A DNA stretch of 64,000 nt from a virus. Below the pieces are notes generated by a model. It was given only the letters and a program-made list of their open reading frames with translations, was not told the DNA's origin and made no database searches. Position 1 is the first letter of the stretch. Each line of letters starts with the position of its first letter. A program made the position numbers and the translations under genes. This document shows positions 28,237 to 62,810 of this stretch, in pieces. Where the stretch lies: positions 62,001 to 126,000 of the IMG/VR virus record IMGVR_UViG_3300025732_000020; one strand, given 5' to 3'.

Positions 28237-28800
28237 ATGTATCCTCACACAATCGTAGTCCTCGGGGCTGATCGAGTTGGAAAATCTAGTATCGTTAAAA
28301 ATACTCAAGATGAGTTGATCTCCCGCGATGTATGTGTCCGTTCACTTCACTTCTCTGGACCTCAACCTCATCATCATACTCCCATCCAGCAATACCTCGA
28401 TCCTTTTCAATCTGCCATTGAGGAAAAAGCTCAAGTAGTTATCTGCGATCGTGGATTCTCAGAGGTATGTTTTTATGAGAAGTTCCGCCGTCACATCGAG
28501 ATCTCAGAAGAATGGGCTAATTCCGCCGAGTCTTTCTTCTCTGCTTACAGTCAGACGATTAAAGTTTTTCTTATTGAGCGGAACTGGGAATGGAGTCTTC
28601 CTCATCACATTATCGAAGTTAATGACCTCTATCCAAATTGTTCCGATTATTTCCTAGAGATGCAACTCAAAGTTAGGAAAAAAGAGCATGAGGAGTATTA
28701 CTCCTATATGAAGGACTATCTCTCTAACCGCTCGCTTCTTTCAGACGTTCAGATTATCTCTCCCACTTCCAAAAGTTTCTCTTTGGCTAATGTGGTTTAA
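28237..28800 (+). CDS. P-loop (deoxy)nucleotide kinase-like protein
   Basis: The 187-residue protein has a Walker A motif GADRVGKS at residues 10-17 and a VVICDRGFSEVCFYE motif at 67-81, which matches the DR(Y/G/H) segment of thymidylate and deoxynucleoside kinases. The fold and length suit a dNMP or deoxynucleoside kinase that would supply precursors for phage DNA. The usual LID region (VFLIERNWEWSL) is only partly like a bacterial Tmk, so the substrate cannot be named. It lies alone between divergent promoters, with its own sigma-70-type promoter, and its stop codon overlaps the GTTTAAAG motif of the next gene. Confidence 0.7.
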   Translation: MYPHTIVVLGADRVGKSSIVKNTQDELISRDVCVRSLHFSGPQPHHHTPIQQYLDPFQSAIEEKAQVVICDRGFSEVCFYEKFRRHIEISEEWANSAESFFSAYSQTIKVFLIERNWEWSLPHHIIEVNDLYPNCSDYFLEMQLKVRKKEHEEYYSYMKDYLSNRSLLSDVQIISPTSKSFSLANVV

Positions 28801-29568: not shown

Positions 29569-32500
29569 GTGTCTAGTCTGTATCGGTGCAAAGCTAGAGT
29601 AGCCTATAAGCCTTTCAATTCTGAGAGGCTTATTGTCTTCGAGGAAAAACAAATCCAAGAGCTAAATGTAAAGCTCAAATGGAATAATTCTTTTTCCTCA
29701 ATGAATTCACAAGGTGCCGATTCGGCAGGCACCTACACATCTGCAATAAGTCAATCAACCTGCCAGGTTACCATCTCCGATCCGTACTTAACCGGGGCGG
29801 CCTGGCCTGCTTTATTTGACGCTGCTTCAATGTGGTCAGCGTCTAATACAGCTCAAACAAATAACATTATTTTACCTCCCTGCGGTAAGGATCAAGATCC
29901 AGTAAGAGATAAGTGTTTTAACTATGGATCGATAGATGATTCAGCACTTGTTAATTCTGACGGGTCCTCCAGAGAACTATCAAGTACCTTTGCACATATC
30001 ATAATTTCGCTATGGTACGAGGTAAATGGCACGTCATTTGGCTCTGATTATTACTTCAGGGTAAATAGAATTAGTATTAATCACGGAGCTAACTTCCCGT
30101 CTGTGACTTTGGCGGGAACTGATCCTAAAAGTGTAGTCTTCAACCAAAACCTTATCAACGTTAAGTTTGATGAGGGGATGTCAGTTGAAGAGGCATTAAA
30201 GAAAATTGCTGAGGAAACCGGATATAAAGCTAGTTTCTGTGTTCCTCCAGGTGGAAAAACAACTGATCCATATATCCTCCCAAGATCATTAATCTACAAA
30301 GGCGTTACTCCTGATGAGGCAATGAAAAAACTCATCGGGGCTACTGGCGGCGCAATGCTCTCCCTCCCCATAAAAGAACACGGGAATACCGTAAGTATTT
30401 GCACTCGTGGAGACCAGGTGGGAAGCTGCACAGTATTTTACCTTGGTAAGGGTCTCTATGAATCGTATCAGATTGACGGAGAGCCCCCTGCCACATTTGC
30501 TCTAAGAAATACTCAGAATGGCGCCAGCATTAACAACGGAGATCCATACGTCTCCGCAAGTTTTGCCGCAGAAAAATACTCCCTAAAGGAAGTAATTAAG
30601 CAAAAAAGAATTAAGGCACTTGAGAAAGTAAAAAAAGTCACTTTCCCAGATCTCTTCAAACCTTGTGAAAAGAGGTGTCAAGGGCCACTTAAGACCGGAT
30701 ATGGATGGACCGGAGCAGGTCCTAATGTAGAAAATAAAAGATACACGGATGTAAACTTTTATGGCATTGCTCCTAATGGTACCCAAGCGATTTCTTATCT
30801 CCCAGGTAAGGTAGAAAGTGCCTCGGAAGAGGAGGGGAAGGTAGTTGTTAAGACTGAGTTTTGGTTACAGATTTGTAAAGATGATAAGTCAGAGAAGTGT
30901 TTCGGTCGGTATGTATACCAAGAGTCTACCAATCTTTCCAAGGTAAAAGTAAAACGAGGTGATGAAGTAAAAGTTTCACAGGAGATCGGTTCATCGGAGA
31001 GTAATAAAAAAGAACTAGTTAGGTTTTATGTACTTGGTCATACTAACGAGTATACCACTCTAGATCCTCAACTTATTTGGAATTGGGCATCTCCTGCTGA
31101 GACTGCCGCGGACTTCCAAAACAAAAATGCTCCCACTGGACCCGGTAATAGCGTAGTAACTCCTGCGCCTAAACAATCCCTCAAAGACTGGAAAGCAACT
31201 ACAACTGCTAAACCTAATAAGGTCTTATTGATGGCTGGCCACGCCGATTTTCCATCAGGTGCGCCTAATGAAAGAGAGTTAAATATAGAACTAGTAAAAT
31301 GGGCGCAACGTAATGCCCAGGCATATGGCATCTCTGATTACATTGAGGTGTATCTACCCTCCTCATCAAATCTACCAGAGAATGATCCACGTTCTCAATT
31401 TAGCAAAACTTCTCAGGCAGCAAGTGCTGGCAAACAGGTAATTGAAATCCACAATGATGCTGCTTCAGGGCATAGTGGGGTAATACCACCAACAGGGGGA
31501 AAAAGAATCTGGCAATTAGACGATGCCCTTGCATCATCATATGGATCCTTTAGTGTCAACCACCGAGATGGATTAGGCGTTCCTAAGAGAGGAGGAACAA
31601 TACTCGAGGTAGGTAGGATGGACGGAGGAACTACGAGAGTATTTACTTCTGGTACTCCTGCTCAAAAGGAGGCATTATATAAGCAACTTATGGATCCCGT
31701 AATGAGATCTATAGCTCAGGAAAAAGCTCGGAATGCTGGAACTGCCACTCCTTCCCCACAACCTACTCAAGGGCCTAATGGATCTGGGGGATTTGATGGA
31801 TTTGTTGGTAAAGTAGGTGATACCGGTAACTCCTATGGATCACACGTTCATGTCGAAGCAGTTCCAAGGAATTCTGTTACAGAAACAGAATTAGATAGTC
31901 TAGTATCCAAATATGTAAAATTTGCTGGTAAGTCTAGGGGAAGAGGATTTAGTGGGCATGGATATCCTGGTATTGATTACCCGGCCCCAGAAGGAACGCC
32001 AATATACATAATTGGCGGAGCGTCCGTTTCCCAGATAGAGAGTACTGGTTGTACTAATGGAGATAAACGTTGTGGCGGTGGATTTGGTAATAGTCTTCTT
32101 ATTAAAACTCCAGAAGGAAAAGTACTTAGATTGGCTCACCTTCAAGGTAAATCGATCCCTCCTAATCTACCCGGTCTAACAAGTTCTGACTCAGGTGGTA
32201 ATACAGAACCAACTATTGCTACTGCCCCGTCAAATAAAGCTTTGACTATTGAGACTTCTTTTAAGGGAGTACCACGTGCCCTGCGAATCACCCCAGGGCG
32301 GACTGTGTTGTCTTTCGTTACTGACTACGACAAATGGCTCGATAATGGAGGGCCGCGTGGCCAAGATCCATCCACAGACCCCGGCGTCTGGATACCTTCA
32401 AGGTTTAGGAACTGGTTTGTAGGGGAAGTGGATTTTGTTTGGAGGCAAGGGGACCTAAGAGTTAACATCGAGGCAAGTAACGCCTGGGGTAATAGTGTCA

Positions 32501-33207
32501 TCTCAGCTCCGACATTCTCAGAATATCTCCAAGGGAAGAAAGGCGCCGGGGAGTTTGAAAAAACTAATGATTACTATGGATACATAAGATCCATTGGCGA
32601 TCTATGTTTCCCGATTAAGAAGGAAGATGGGAAATTGAGCGACTCGTGCAAAGAAAATTGTAGAGAGGCCCAAGAGTTTTACAAGAAGTATGGTTCTGGT
32701 ACTCAAGAGGATACTGGAGCAAACGGTTCCTCTGGGTCGTTCCCCGCTGCAAATTGTAAGACAGGAGATCCAAAAAAGGACGCTATTATAAATGCCCTCT
32801 ATTCTGCAGGTTTAAAAACCCCTAACGCACTTGCTGGGGCACTTGGTAACCTCCAGGCAGAAAGTGGATTTGATCATAATGTTCATAATACTTCCAAGCA
32901 AGGAACTACTTGTGTTACAGTATCTGGAGTACCAGAAAAGTGTTATGGGTTGGTTCAATGGGGAGGTTCCCGTAAAACAGAAATTATTGCCAAATGTGGC
33001 CAAACAAGCACATTACAATGTCAGCTTGAGTTCATGGTACAGGAAGTGAAAAAGAGAGGTGGGGGTGTGGTAGAAGGTATGAATAGTGCTTCGAGTGCAT
33101 CAGCAGCGGCTGAAATATGGAGAACAAAATACGAAGTTGGTAGTGGAGGAATAGCGGAAAGGCAACAATATGCTGAACAGATAGTTAAAACTATTACGTG
33201 CGGATAA
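29569..33207 (+). CDS. Giant tail lysin / baseplate hub with three murein-hydrolase-like domains
   Basis: This 1212-residue protein uses a GTG start with AGGTAAG upstream. Residues ~1-540 look like a tail-hub region (DEGMSVEEALKKIAEETG, as in secretin- or hub-type domains). Residues ~550-715 resemble an Amidase_3 zinc amidase: GH at 557-558, NERELN at 567, EIHND (H628) and LEVG (E680). Residues ~742-860 carry M23 endopeptidase motifs in reversed order: GSHVHVEA (H759, H761) comes before HGYPGID (H797, D803) and LAHL (H857). Residues ~1070-1210 match the phage tail lysozyme type (GALGNLQAESGF with E1098, then YGLVQWGG). The likely role is cutting the peptidoglycan of the host during injection. 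Several Cys residues (CEKRC, CKENC) may form disulphides. Confidence 0.8.
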   Translation: MSSLYRCKARVAYKPFNSERLIVFEEKQIQELNVKLKWNNSFSSMNSQGADSAGTYTSAISQSTCQVTISDPYLTGAAWPALFDAASMWSASNTAQTNNIILPPCGKDQDPVRDKCFNYGSIDDSALVNSDGSSRELSSTFAHIIISLWYEVNGTSFGSDYYFRVNRISINHGANFPSVTLAGTDPKSVVFNQNLINVKFDEGMSVEEALKKIAEETGYKASFCVPPGGKTTDPYILPRSLIYKGVTPDEAMKKLIGATGGAMLSLPIKEHGNTVSICTRGDQVGSCTVFYLGKGLYESYQIDGEPPATFALRNTQNGASINNGDPYVSASFAAEKYSLKEVIKQKRIKALEKVKKVTFPDLFKPCEKRCQGPLKTGYGWTGAGPNVENKRYTDVNFYGIAPNGTQAISYLPGKVESASEEEGKVVVKTEFWLQICKDDKSEKCFGRYVYQESTNLSKVKVKRGDEVKVSQEIGSSESNKKELVRFYVLGHTNEYTTLDPQLIWNWASPAETAADFQNKNAPTGPGNSVVTPAPKQSLKDWKATTTAKPNKVLLMAGHADFPSGAPNERELNIELVKWAQRNAQAYGISDYIEVYLPSSSNLPENDPRSQFSKTSQAASAGKQVIEIHNDAASGHSGVIPPTGGKRIWQLDDALASSYGSFSVNHRDGLGVPKRGGTILEVGRMDGGTTRVFTSGTPAQKEALYKQLMDPVMRSIAQEKARNAGTATPSPQPTQGPNGSGGFDGFVGKVGDTGNSYGSHVHVEAVPRNSVTETELDSLVSKYVKFAGKSRGRGFSGHGYPGIDYPAPEGTPIYIIGGASVSQIESTGCTNGDKRCGGGFGNSLLIKTPEGKVLRLAHLQGKSIPPNLPGLTSSDSGGNTEPTIATAPSNKALTIETSFKGVPRALRITPGRTVLSFVTDYDKWLDNGGPRGQDPSTDPGVWIPSRFRNWFVGEVDFVWRQGDLRVNIEASNAWGNSVISAPTFSEYLQGKKGAGEFEKTNDYYGYIRSIGDLCFPIKKEDGKLSDSCKENCREAQEFYKKYGSGTQEDTGANGSSGSFPAANCKTGDPKKDAIINALYSAGLKTPNALAGALGNLQAESGFDHNVHNTSKQGTTCVTVSGVPEKCYGLVQWGGSRKTEIIAKCGQTSTLQCQLEFMVQEVKKRGGGVVEGMNSASSASAAAEIWRTKYEVGSGGIAERQQYAEQIVKTITCG

Positions 33208-33892: not shown

Positions 33893-34591
33893 TTATCCGT
33901 AGTACTTTGATCCCTTTTCGAGATTAGCCTTAGCACTTAGGGCTTGGAGTCTAGCATTGATGGCATGGTAGTCAAACCAACTCTCAGCAAGAGACGTGTC
34001 TTTAAAATAACACTTAGTCCCACGGCAATACACATCTATCCTTTCAAGATCAACCTTTTCCTCCCTGCACCATTCCTCAACAAGGCTCTTAAATGGGTAA
34101 GAATGGTCAATATGAAACTCCCCGGCATTAATAAATACCCCATGAATAGGGCATCTCATGGGTTTCCTTTTAAGCTGGCGATTTACACTTAGTCTAAATG
34201 TTTTAATTTGTGGCTCGATGATTTGTCTCATAGCCACCAAAACATCCATTTTATTCTGCTTGTACTCAGGAATTGGTTTGACTCTAGGGAAAAGTTCGTC
34301 TGTGACCTTGCCTTTTCCCAGCCAAATTTCCCTCTTCGACCGAGAAGTTACCATGACAACGCCTCTTACAGCTTTGCCTTGGAACTTTTTATTTCGTATT
34401 TTATACTTAACTTCCCCGCGGTCCTTAATTACTTTCCACTTAGGGATTAACTCTATTACACTATCTAAGAAGTCTTTATCGTTGTCTTTTACAAAGTAGT
34501 TGCATTCTGTTCCACTGACAACTTCTGTCCACTTTTTTTCAAAGGCTCCCTTCGTGTATTCATTACCTTTGATGGATATGACGCGTCGCAT
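33893..34591 (-). CDS. DCL (DUF3223)-like / HNH-like protein
   Basis: The N-terminal half (FEKKWTEVVSG...DKDFLDSVIELIPKW...VMVTSRSKREIWLG) resembles the DCL/DUF3223 domain, named for a plant chloroplast RNA-processing protein and found in some phages. The C-terminal half has CPIHGVFINAGEFHIDHSYP followed by DYHAINARLQALSAKAN, which looks like an HNH-type nuclease fold with zinc-binding Cys and His. The match is by memory of motif spacing only. The gene begins inside the sigma-factor gene, overlapping it by 103 bases, and is the last gene of the minus-strand late-type operon. Confidence 0.5.
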   Translation of the reverse strand: MRRVISIKGNEYTKGAFEKKWTEVVSGTECNYFVKDNDKDFLDSVIELIPKWKVIKDRGEVKYKIRNKKFQGKAVRGVVMVTSRSKREIWLGKGKVTDELFPRVKPIPEYKQNKMDVLVAMRQIIEPQIKTFRLSVNRQLKRKPMRCPIHGVFINAGEFHIDHSYPFKSLVEEWCREEKVDLERIDVYCRGTKCYFKDTSLAESWFDYHAINARLQALSAKANLEKGSKYYG

Positions 34592-35274
34592 AGGATAAAC
34601 TCAATAAGTTGTTCTGAATATTTTTTAATATCATCCGCATTTTTAAGATGGGGATTTTTACGGACAATTGTTGATACCGATCTTTTCTTAACAAGGTAAT
34701 CCATGAGAAAAGTCTCGTCAACTGGATCTAAATCAGTAATCTTATGGAGAAGGTCGCGATGGCTCATCATGAAATCCCCCATTGTCATTTCTGACTCATA
34801 CTCTGGCTCAATAATGTTACAGTATTCGGTGACAGGAGAAAAACTCATAGCAAATGCTTGGCGAACTGCTCGGATTTTTTTCACAGGGACCTGGATTTTT
34901 TCTGCAATCTGCTCATCGGAGATGTCTGGATCAGCAATTGTATATTTGCGGATCTTAAGATACAAATCGGAGTAGGAACGCGGGATTTTAACTAGTCGGG
35001 AATTATCTCGTAGGTAATTCAGCATATGAAACTGCAGACACCTATTCACCCAGGTAGAGAAGTTGGCGCCCTTACTCTGGTCCCAAGAATCGTAAATTTT
35101 TACTATATACTCAAGAGCAGCGTCCCTAAGCTCCTCATAGGGCAATCCAGTAAATGAGGAGATTTTTCTGGCAACTTGAGAAGCCTTCCACATCTGTGAT
35201 ATAATTTGCTCATCGCGTTCAGACTGCCTTTTCCGCGACTTGCGTTTTTCCTGCTTTTCGGGTTCTATACTCAT
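34489..35274 (-). CDS. Phage sigma factor (sigma-70 family, regions 2-3)
   Basis: Residues ~45-100 match sigma region 2: GLPYEELRDAALEYIVKIYD, then WDQSKGANFSTWVNRCLQFH, then LNYLRDNSRLVKIPRS. These are the core-binding and -10-melting helices. Residues ~116-140 (DISDEQIAEKIQVPVKKIRA) match region 3. No clear region 4 (-35 binding) follows, although a divergent one cannot be excluded. The 261-residue protein has a very basic N-terminus. It probably redirects host RNA polymerase to phage promoters, as T4 gp55 does. It overlaps the thioredoxin gene by ATGA, so it is translated with the terminase/baseplate operon. The recurring GTTTAAAG motif is a natural candidate for its target. Confidence 0.8.
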   Translation of the reverse strand: MSIEPEKQEKRKSRKRQSERDEQIISQMWKASQVARKISSFTGLPYEELRDAALEYIVKIYDSWDQSKGANFSTWVNRCLQFHMLNYLRDNSRLVKIPRSYSDLYLKIRKYTIADPDISDEQIAEKIQVPVKKIRAVRQAFAMSFSPVTEYCNIIEPEYESEMTMGDFMMSHRDLLHKITDLDPVDETFLMDYLVKKRSVSTIVRKNPHLKNADDIKKYSEQLIEFILCDASYPSKVMNTRREPLKKSGQKLSVEQNATTL

Positions 35275-61599: not shown

Positions 61600-62810
61600 A
61601 TAACCCAGAGGGACTTCATCGGATCTTTAGAGGCAGTATTATTCTGCCTTAAGATTTTGTATGTGCCATCTCCTTGGGTCTCAGGATCGATCCATTCTCT
61701 GTTACCATCTAGAGCTTCAGCAATCTCTCTAATCCAGTCTGCAGCAGTACATGCCGGAACATTCTGGCAAATCACATTACTATGCTTAGTTGGAATTTGT
61801 ACCTTTTTGGCATAATCATCAGGGAAACCCATGAGGGCTAGACCCTCAGAAACGGTTAACCATCTGTCCTCATGGGGATGCATCAGATGAGGAAGAGTTT
61901 TCCACATAAGCGATTGTGTTCTATACCATGCAAGTTTCATACTTCCGTCCATGATATTCTTTCCGGCTCTTTTTTTCTCCAAGGTGTAGTTGAGCCAGCG
62001 ACTTGCTCTCTCATCCTTGACTACTCTAGCGGCTTCTTCTAACCACCCTGAGTCATAGATTACGTTCCATACGGACGTCATTCTCTTAGAGGCAACATGA
62101 GCTAGAATGTCCTGCTTTGTAGACCCGGTAAACTTAGACTCAATAAACTGCCAGAGGGGGTCTGCACTAGGAAGATTTTTATTATTTGACACCGACTCCG
62201 TAGGAGCGAAATGTCCCTCTCCTAGGAATTTATGGAAAGGCAGGAAGTCTTTTTTAACTGGCGCAAGGACCGGGACCTTGTTACCCTTCCACAAGAAAAA
62301 GAAACTTCTTGTCCGTTCTTGTGGCACGCCATGATTAATCGAGGTGGTCTTTACCAAACTCATTGTATAGCCATTTGCCTGGGCGAGGGAGTTAATTCTT
62401 TCTGCAAACTCCTCTCCCATCTTGGAGTAGAGAGTTGGGGCGTTCTCGACCATAATTGCCTTAGGAGCAATTTTCTGCATAGCAAACTCAGCAGCATTGT
62501 ACATATGCATGTTACTAGGAGCAGAACATCCACGTGGGTTGTTTGCTTTATCCCCAGAGGTGGTGTTGGCCATTGAGAGCCCAGCGCATGGAGGAAGTGA
62601 CGTTACAATATCTACATAGTCAGTAGGATAGTTCTTCTCATCGAAATCGTAAAATGGCACCTTATCCATGTACTTGAGACAGTACTGATCATTCGCACCA
62701 AATACACTCCCCCAAGATGCAATCCACTTCGGATCTGACTGAAGGGCAATCGAAGTTCCTACAACACTTCCCCCTACGAGAGGGATGATATGACCATGAG
62801 TATACGTCAT
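61596..62810 (-). CDS. DNA cytosine-5 methyltransferase
   Basis: The 404-residue protein has the m5C methyltransferase motifs in order: a variant motif I (PLVGGSVVGTSIAL), the catalytic motif IV with C75 (SLPPCAGLS), motif VI VENAP (121-125), motif VIII QERTRSFFF (164-172) and motif X-like QNVPACTAADW (about 349-359), with LMGFPDDY before it. It methylates cytosine at C5 in a specific sequence. In phages this protects DNA from host or rival restriction enzymes. The target sequence is not predictable. No partner restriction enzyme is seen. It is transcribed divergently from the last two genes. Confidence 0.85.
   Translation of the reverse strand: MTYTHGHIIPLVGGSVVGTSIALQSDPKWIASWGSVFGANDQYCLKYMDKVPFYDFDEKNYPTDYVDIVTSLPPCAGLSMANTTSGDKANNPRGCSAPSNMHMYNAAEFAMQKIAPKAIMVENAPTLYSKMGEEFAERINSLAQANGYTMSLVKTTSINHGVPQERTRSFFFLWKGNKVPVLAPVKKDFLPFHKFLGEGHFAPTESVSNNKNLPSADPLWQFIESKFTGSTKQDILAHVASKRMTSVWNVIYDSGWLEEAARVVKDERASRWLNYTLEKKRAGKNIMDGSMKLAWYRTQSLMWKTLPHLMHPHEDRWLTVSEGLALMGFPDDYAKKVQIPTKHSNVICQNVPACTAADWIREIAEALDGNREWIDPETQGDGTYKILRQNNTASKDPMKSLWVI

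Follow-up and report, generated by a model that had tools for sequence, protein, structure and literature searches.

M23 peptidases are textbook cell wall hydrolases, and the order of their motifs has been taken as fixed: along the chain of canonical members (PF01551, including LytM, lysostaphin, zoocin A, and Csd3), HxxxD comes first, followed by AHL and then HxH. On phage tails, the phi29 tail-tip protein gp13 combines a lysozyme with an M23 domain in this canonical order. Like the protein studied here, Ma-LMM01 gp94/gp95 bring together an amidase-like domain in a baseplate protein and an adjoining M23 gene; there, however, M23 is encoded separately and keeps the canonical order. Circular permutation of peptidoglycan peptidases is described for subfamilies of NlpC/P60 in one report (PMC6403190). 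These are likewise permuted wall peptidases, but they are cysteine peptidases of another fold, and no sequence relation to the domain described here is claimed. For M23, we found no earlier report of a circularly permuted member in the open-access papers searched. Here, we analyzed a 64,000-nucleotide stretch of viral DNA (the window; positions 62,001 to 126,000 of IMG/VR record IMGVR_UViG_3300025732_000020). Taking the evidence as a whole, one of its segments is very probably a naturally circularly permuted M23 domain within the tail-hub protein of an S-TIM5-like cyanophage.

A multidomain tail-hub protein of an S-TIM5-like cyanophage

The carrier of the permuted domain is a tail-hub (baseplate-type) protein of 1212 aa, encoded by an open reading frame with a GTG start at positions 29569 to 33207 of the plus strand, as are all features of this protein given below. 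The GenBank relatives of the window virus are the S-TIM5-like cyanophages S-TIM5, S-TIM54, S-TIM61, and S-TIM66, whose gene neighborhood is similar; PhoH lies upstream of the hub gene in the window, as it does in S-TIM5 and S-TIM54. Homologues of the hub protein in these phages are annotated "virion structural protein," and that of S-TIM54 is 32% identical over 81% of the window protein (tblastn). Homology outside the M23 segment, together with gene neighborhood, places the window protein among the S-TIM5-like hubs. Two neighboring reading frames were also noted. The first (34489 to 35274, minus strand), flanked by the hub gene and the terminase, occupies the position of the SigF gene of S-TIM5-like phages, an assignment made by position; the second, a small frame upstream of the hub gene (28237 to 28800, plus strand), weakly resembles thymidylate kinase (phrog_761; E = 4 × 10−4).

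Several domains and conserved segments could be delimited along the hub protein. A conserved hub motif, VFYLGKGLY (30433 to 30459; alignment A4 and scan), served as an anchor for one of the censuses described below. It is followed by a stretch that is M23-like and in normal order but degenerate (residues 402 to 480; 30772 to 31008; PF01551, profile positions 11 to 76 or, in the search of the whole record, 10 to 76), in which reading of the residues revealed neither HxxxD nor HxH. This stretch, which contains a hairpin that is absent from the permuted domain, is presumably inactive. Next is an amidase-like domain (residues 505 to 715; 31081 to 31713; phrog_30576 and motif survey), for which tblastn gave similarity to a baseplate protein of Microcystis phage Ma-LMM01. 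By motif, an amidase-like domain is present in the window and in L014, L019, L020, L024, L032, L033, and L036; it is an insertion in the window phage and is absent from L003 and S-TIM54. The permuted domain itself spans residues 741 to 872 (31789 to 32184), as delimited by profiles, a rotation test, alignment, and the model of a relative. Directly downstream lies a conserved hub segment, TSFKGVP...YIRSIG (32254 to 32598; alignment A2 and motif survey), and the protein ends with a phage tail lysozyme domain (residues 1072 to 1207; 32782 to 33189; PF18013, E = 5.3 × 10−22).

The motifs of M23 occur in reversed order

Within the permuted domain, the first motif is GDTGNSYGSHVHVEA (residues 750 to 764; 31816 to 31860), the HxH motif with His759 and His761, which belongs to the C-terminal half of canonical M23. 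The H..D motif of the canonical N-terminal half, HGYPGIDYPAPEGTP (residues 797 to 811; 31957 to 32001; His797, Tyr799, and Asp803), comes second, and LAHL (residues 855 to 858; 32131 to 32142; His857) comes last. The domain therefore has the C-terminal M23 half (GxxGxTG..HxH) at its start and the N-terminal half (H..D..AHL) at its end, so that the order is HxH, H..D, AHL rather than the canonical one, clade-wide. The first-pass annotation of this DNA had proposed that the order of these motifs is reversed while each remains intact. Their order was borne out at exactly these residues of the open reading frame; their intactness was not, given that the residue four positions before the aspartate (D-4) is Tyr799 and the nearest histidine is His797, at D-6. 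The annotation made no mention of the degenerate stretch at residues 402 to 480. Its further proposal, that the M23 domain is circularly permuted, is supported by swapped profile matches, the rotation test, structure comparison of a relative, and clade-wide conservation, and we regard it as almost certain.

Both halves match M23 profiles, in exchanged positions

Both halves of the domain are homologous in sequence to M23 (PF01551). A profile built from five permuted domains matched solved M23 chains in two stretches of swapped order (for example, on 3slu, profile positions 59 to 119 preceded positions 3 to 26). With a 23-row profile, the order was swapped in all five alignments shown, among 30 chains listed; the second half of the profile aligned to the first part of M23 and its first ~25 positions to the M23 end. 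In hhalign comparisons of profile A3 with 71 canonical sequences, A3 positions 1 to 47 aligned to positions 79 to 125 and A3 positions 39 to 136 to positions 1 to 95 (Prob 98.0 and 97.6, respectively), and the two alignments cover the domain between them.

A PF01551 search of the whole 135-kb virus record, with a curated cut-off of 28.7 bits, returned two places, both below threshold: the degenerate stretch at residues 402 to 480 (profile 10 to 76) and residues 800 to 860 (profile 4 to 54). The latter match comprises the N-terminal half only and scores 16.6 bits, so that the segment alone misses the cut-off; two stretches together give the whole hub protein 37 bits, the best of them being residues 402 to 480. 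Permuted copies fall under the Pfam cut-off and carry the annotation "virion structural protein."

For the rotation test, 80 bacterial M23 loci were fetched, of which 72 remained after motif filtering; the profile made from their 71 distinct sequences was rotated in steps of four columns. Across 23 permuted domains, the mean score of the best stretch increased from 22.9 bits without rotation to 41.5 bits after rotation by 84 columns, and the rotated profile gave a single continuous match in 23/23 domains, compared to two swapped partial matches with the unrotated profile. The preferred cut fell at columns 76 to 88, in the loop that connects the YAH strand with the GxTG..HxH strand. Four canonical domains used as controls behaved in the opposite way (115.4 bits before and 69.2 bits after rotation), and shuffled domains scored ~0. 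These results indicate that the old termini are fused, that the AHL-HxH loop is open, and that the canonical VxxGxxVxxGQ hairpin is missing. In this arrangement, the original N and C termini of M23 are joined such that the HxH strand runs through a helix and a linker into the segment leading to H..D. The new termini lie in the loop that ordinarily links the AHL and GxxGxTG..HxH strands, from which the VxxGxxVxxGQ hairpin has disappeared. A natural permutation of this kind shows which M23 loop can open with the active-site residues conserved, and permuted M23 domains offer scaffolds for enzyme engineering.

Predicted structures are compact, and that of a relative resembles M23 modestly, in its second half

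An AlphaFold2 model of the window domain, built with 23 sequences, reached a pLDDT of 85.3 and a pTM of 0.83; apart from the ends, it was weakest at fragment residues 51 to 70, around the altered motif. No M23 structure was present among the best 50 matches listed by Foldseek against the PDB or among the entries listed by VIA-align. Against viral models (Foldseek, BFVD), the window model matched S-TIM5, P60, and two others with TM scores of 0.55 to 0.63 (E ≤ 0.001 for three of the four). The corresponding domain of a relative, L254, was modeled with 37 sequences and higher scores (pLDDT 94.7, pTM 0.89). Among the best 50 Foldseek matches listed for this model in the PDB there was again no M23, but the six best VIA-align entries were all M23 structures: Csd3, LytM (twice), lysostaphin, StM23, and a gonococcal M23. 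The similarity was modest (Z of 4.4 to 5.6; rmsd of 2.5 to 3.1 over 80 to 84 residues), and it was mostly model residues 47 to 143 that aligned to the beginning of the M23 domain (for example, LytM 185 to 270). A match restricted to the second half is what a sequential aligner can recover from a permuted fold, here a predicted one.

The order of the motifs does not by itself separate pairing of the halves within one chain from pairing between chains. Tail hubs are commonly trimers, and the domain could accordingly be a domain-swapped M23 in which the halves pair between subunits of the hub trimer. We consider this improbable: the monomer predictions for both the window and L254 are compact and confident, and a rotated canonical profile with its tails simply joined matches every one of the 23 domains continuously. 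Permutation within a single chain remains the preferred reading.

The reversed order is conserved across the clade

The same order was sought in other phages and was found almost throughout the hub family. A first census, based on the conserved hub segment that follows the domain, yielded 35 loci representing 28 distinct proteins (L003 and its copy counted together), of which two end before the motifs. Among the 26 distinct relatives left, which hold both motifs, 25 have the reversed order. The exception is L045, in which a canonical M23 occupies the slot of the permuted domain; a search with this canonical M23 matched only L045 itself. The same protein (L045:2412-7118, 1569 aa) was observed to have an amidase-like domain at its C terminus in place of the lysozyme. 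A second census was anchored only on VFYLGKGLY, ~450 residues upstream of the domain, and returned 51 loci (41 distinct proteins); the two sets share contigs. All 51 loci showed the reversed order, and the rotated profile outscored the unrotated one in each. L045 is missing from this census because its hub motif differs. The reversed order is also present in four named isolates, S-TIM5, S-TIM54, S-TIM61, and S-TIM66.

Two further explanations fare poorly against this distribution. Chance likeness of motifs or an assembly error, in favor of which we found nothing, has a negligible probability, considering that the order is common to independent contigs and isolates, that both halves match M23 profiles, and that shuffled domains score ~0. 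Permutation is known to arise by duplication and subsequent trimming, and with a degenerate M23-like stretch just upstream, the domain might be all that is left, without function, of tandem M23 domains whose outer halves were lost. This is very unlikely in view of the uniform order in the 51 loci and four isolates, the retention of most active-site residues in both halves, and the purifying selection described below. The permutation itself may nevertheless have originated by tandem duplication; no tandem M23 intermediate was seen.

Profile A3 detected no permuted M23 in 1578 bacterial genomes from four phyla (386, 398, 398, and 396 genomes), in many of which only ~10 to 11 candidates were scored. 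Three genomes gave matches with E ≤ 1 × 10−10, all of them partial (49 to 119, 27 to 114, and 49 to 117) and in canonical order. As a positive control on phage records, A3 recovered S-TIM54 (133.5 bits over positions 3 to 123), S-TIM66 (94.3 bits), and S-TIM5 (84.1 bits) and missed P60. Matches on a Sagittula plasmid appeared permuted by their coordinates and were rejected once the sequence was read, which was canonical. A scan of genome contigs with profile A2 found no relative. Finally, a DNA pattern scan based on motif order returned at least 120 stretches; 80 loci were taken, 25 open reading frames had the motif pair in frame, and the four of these that were M23-like (L288, L294, L310, and L338) were all on hub-family contigs.

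A related permuted domain in T7-like cyanophages

T7-like cyanophages have the same permuted layout in the C-terminal domain of an internal virion protein, namely, P60 gp33 (L051:25285-25776), S-CBP1_0035 (L052:3728-4180), and DSL-LC07 (L056:189-3182). This domain aligned to A3 in one stretch (hhalign; Prob 98.3, E = 1.6 × 10−14), and P60 was also a Foldseek match in BFVD. Unlike the hub domain, the T7-like version resides in an internal protein rather than a tail hub, has Ser at the canonical zinc-His position, and reads HLD at the position of HxH; among 72 loci fetched, 69 were complete, and HLD was present in 68 of these 69. The T7-like version is possibly inactive or has another metal site. 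In S-SRP01, a protein that resembles its S-CBP1 counterpart in start and gene position carries a canonical M23 at that place. The available part of the P-SCSP1u structure paper does not mention a peptidase or M23 (PMC10575957).

Active-site residues are largely retained under purifying selection

In an alignment of 37 permuted domains (A5), the first HxH histidine, the aspartate, and the xH[L] histidine were each conserved in 37/37, the second HxH histidine in 35/37, and the HxxxD histidine in 34/37. The window domain retains His759 and His761 of HxH, His857 of xHL, and Asp803, and it lacks a histidine at D-4. This departure is found in the window, L228 (the same as L003), and L235. The window and L228 read HGYPGID and L235 reads HNYDGAID, such that a histidine lies two residues before the tyrosine in all three exceptions; the repeated His-x-Tyr pattern may reflect displacement of the ligand and not decay. 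Zinc-binding and catalytic roles were transferred from LytM. Selection on the domain is purifying (Ka of 0.20 with saturated Ks for the window versus L003; Ka/Ks of ~0.17 for L233 versus L238). In two other hub-family domains (L257:2419-2835 and L259:6377-6793), HLD replaces HxH, as in the T7-like cyanophage version, with HxGxD intact.

Compared to M23, then, the domain shares sequence homology in both halves, the HxH, Asp, and AHL residues, and, in the L254 model, a modest likeness in fold over the N-terminal half. It differs in that the halves are reversed, the AHL-HxH loop is opened, the hairpin is lost, and, in the window, the HxxxD histidine is replaced. Because of the motif order and, in the window protein, the altered HxxxD, it is not an M23 domain in the strict sense; judged by its sequence, it is a permuted M23 derivative, and it likely works like M23. 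The chain would fold into a single M23 domain and form a single zinc site from Asp803, His761, and either His797 or, with lower probability, Tyr799; the remaining active-site histidines would be His759 and His857. On this model, the M23 module on the tail hub would target host wall peptides during entry. Alongside the amidase-like and C-terminal lysozyme domains, it would most likely cut host peptidoglycan as the genome passes from the tail through the wall.

An active peptidase is probable in most of the clade. For the window phage, with its shifted histidine, we lean only slightly toward activity. We also entertain the possibility, tentatively, that the permuted domain has lost its enzyme function in this phage, where Tyr occupies the zinc-His position, and instead binds peptidoglycan or plays a structural part. 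Consistent with such a loss are the replacement of His by Tyr in 3/37 domains (Tyr799 in the window, and likewise in L228 and L235), the upstream M23-like stretch that has already shed its motifs, and the near-universal HLD of the T7-like loci; set against it are the histidine at the same offset in every exception (HGY or HNY), the retention of the remaining active-site residues, and the purifying selection.

The domain is exchanged as a cassette

Comparison of 46 distinct hub proteins revealed several pairs that were near-identical on both flanks and only 40 to 53% identical inside the permuted domain; in such phages, hub-gene identity outside the domain was 94.6 to 99.8%. The divergent blocks match the permuted domain closely: residues 524 to 679 for S-TIM66 versus S-TIM5 (99.8% identical outside), 539 to 649 for L225 versus L228 (98.4%), and 544 to 682 for L258 versus L259 (98.1%). 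At the DNA level, identity between S-TIM61 and S-TIM66 (L007 and L008) dropped from ~95 to 100% to 41 to 56% in the block and then recovered. The divergence of this domain amid near-identical hubs indicates that it is exchanged as a cassette, and swapping of a single domain between near-identical cyanophages suggests selection on the wall chemistry cut by the tail.

We think it reasonably likely that these observations describe a natural permuted M23, apparently not reported before, that is common to the hub of S-TIM5-like myoviruses and an internal protein of T7-like podoviruses. Within the myovirus hubs, this domain would be a hot-swapped cassette whose exchange boundaries coincide with the permuted ends, such that the permutation may have eased insertion into, and exchange within, the hub. 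Replacement was also observed at the C terminus, where the lysozyme (~165 residues) differs in two otherwise similar hub pairs, L243/L245 and L242/L244.
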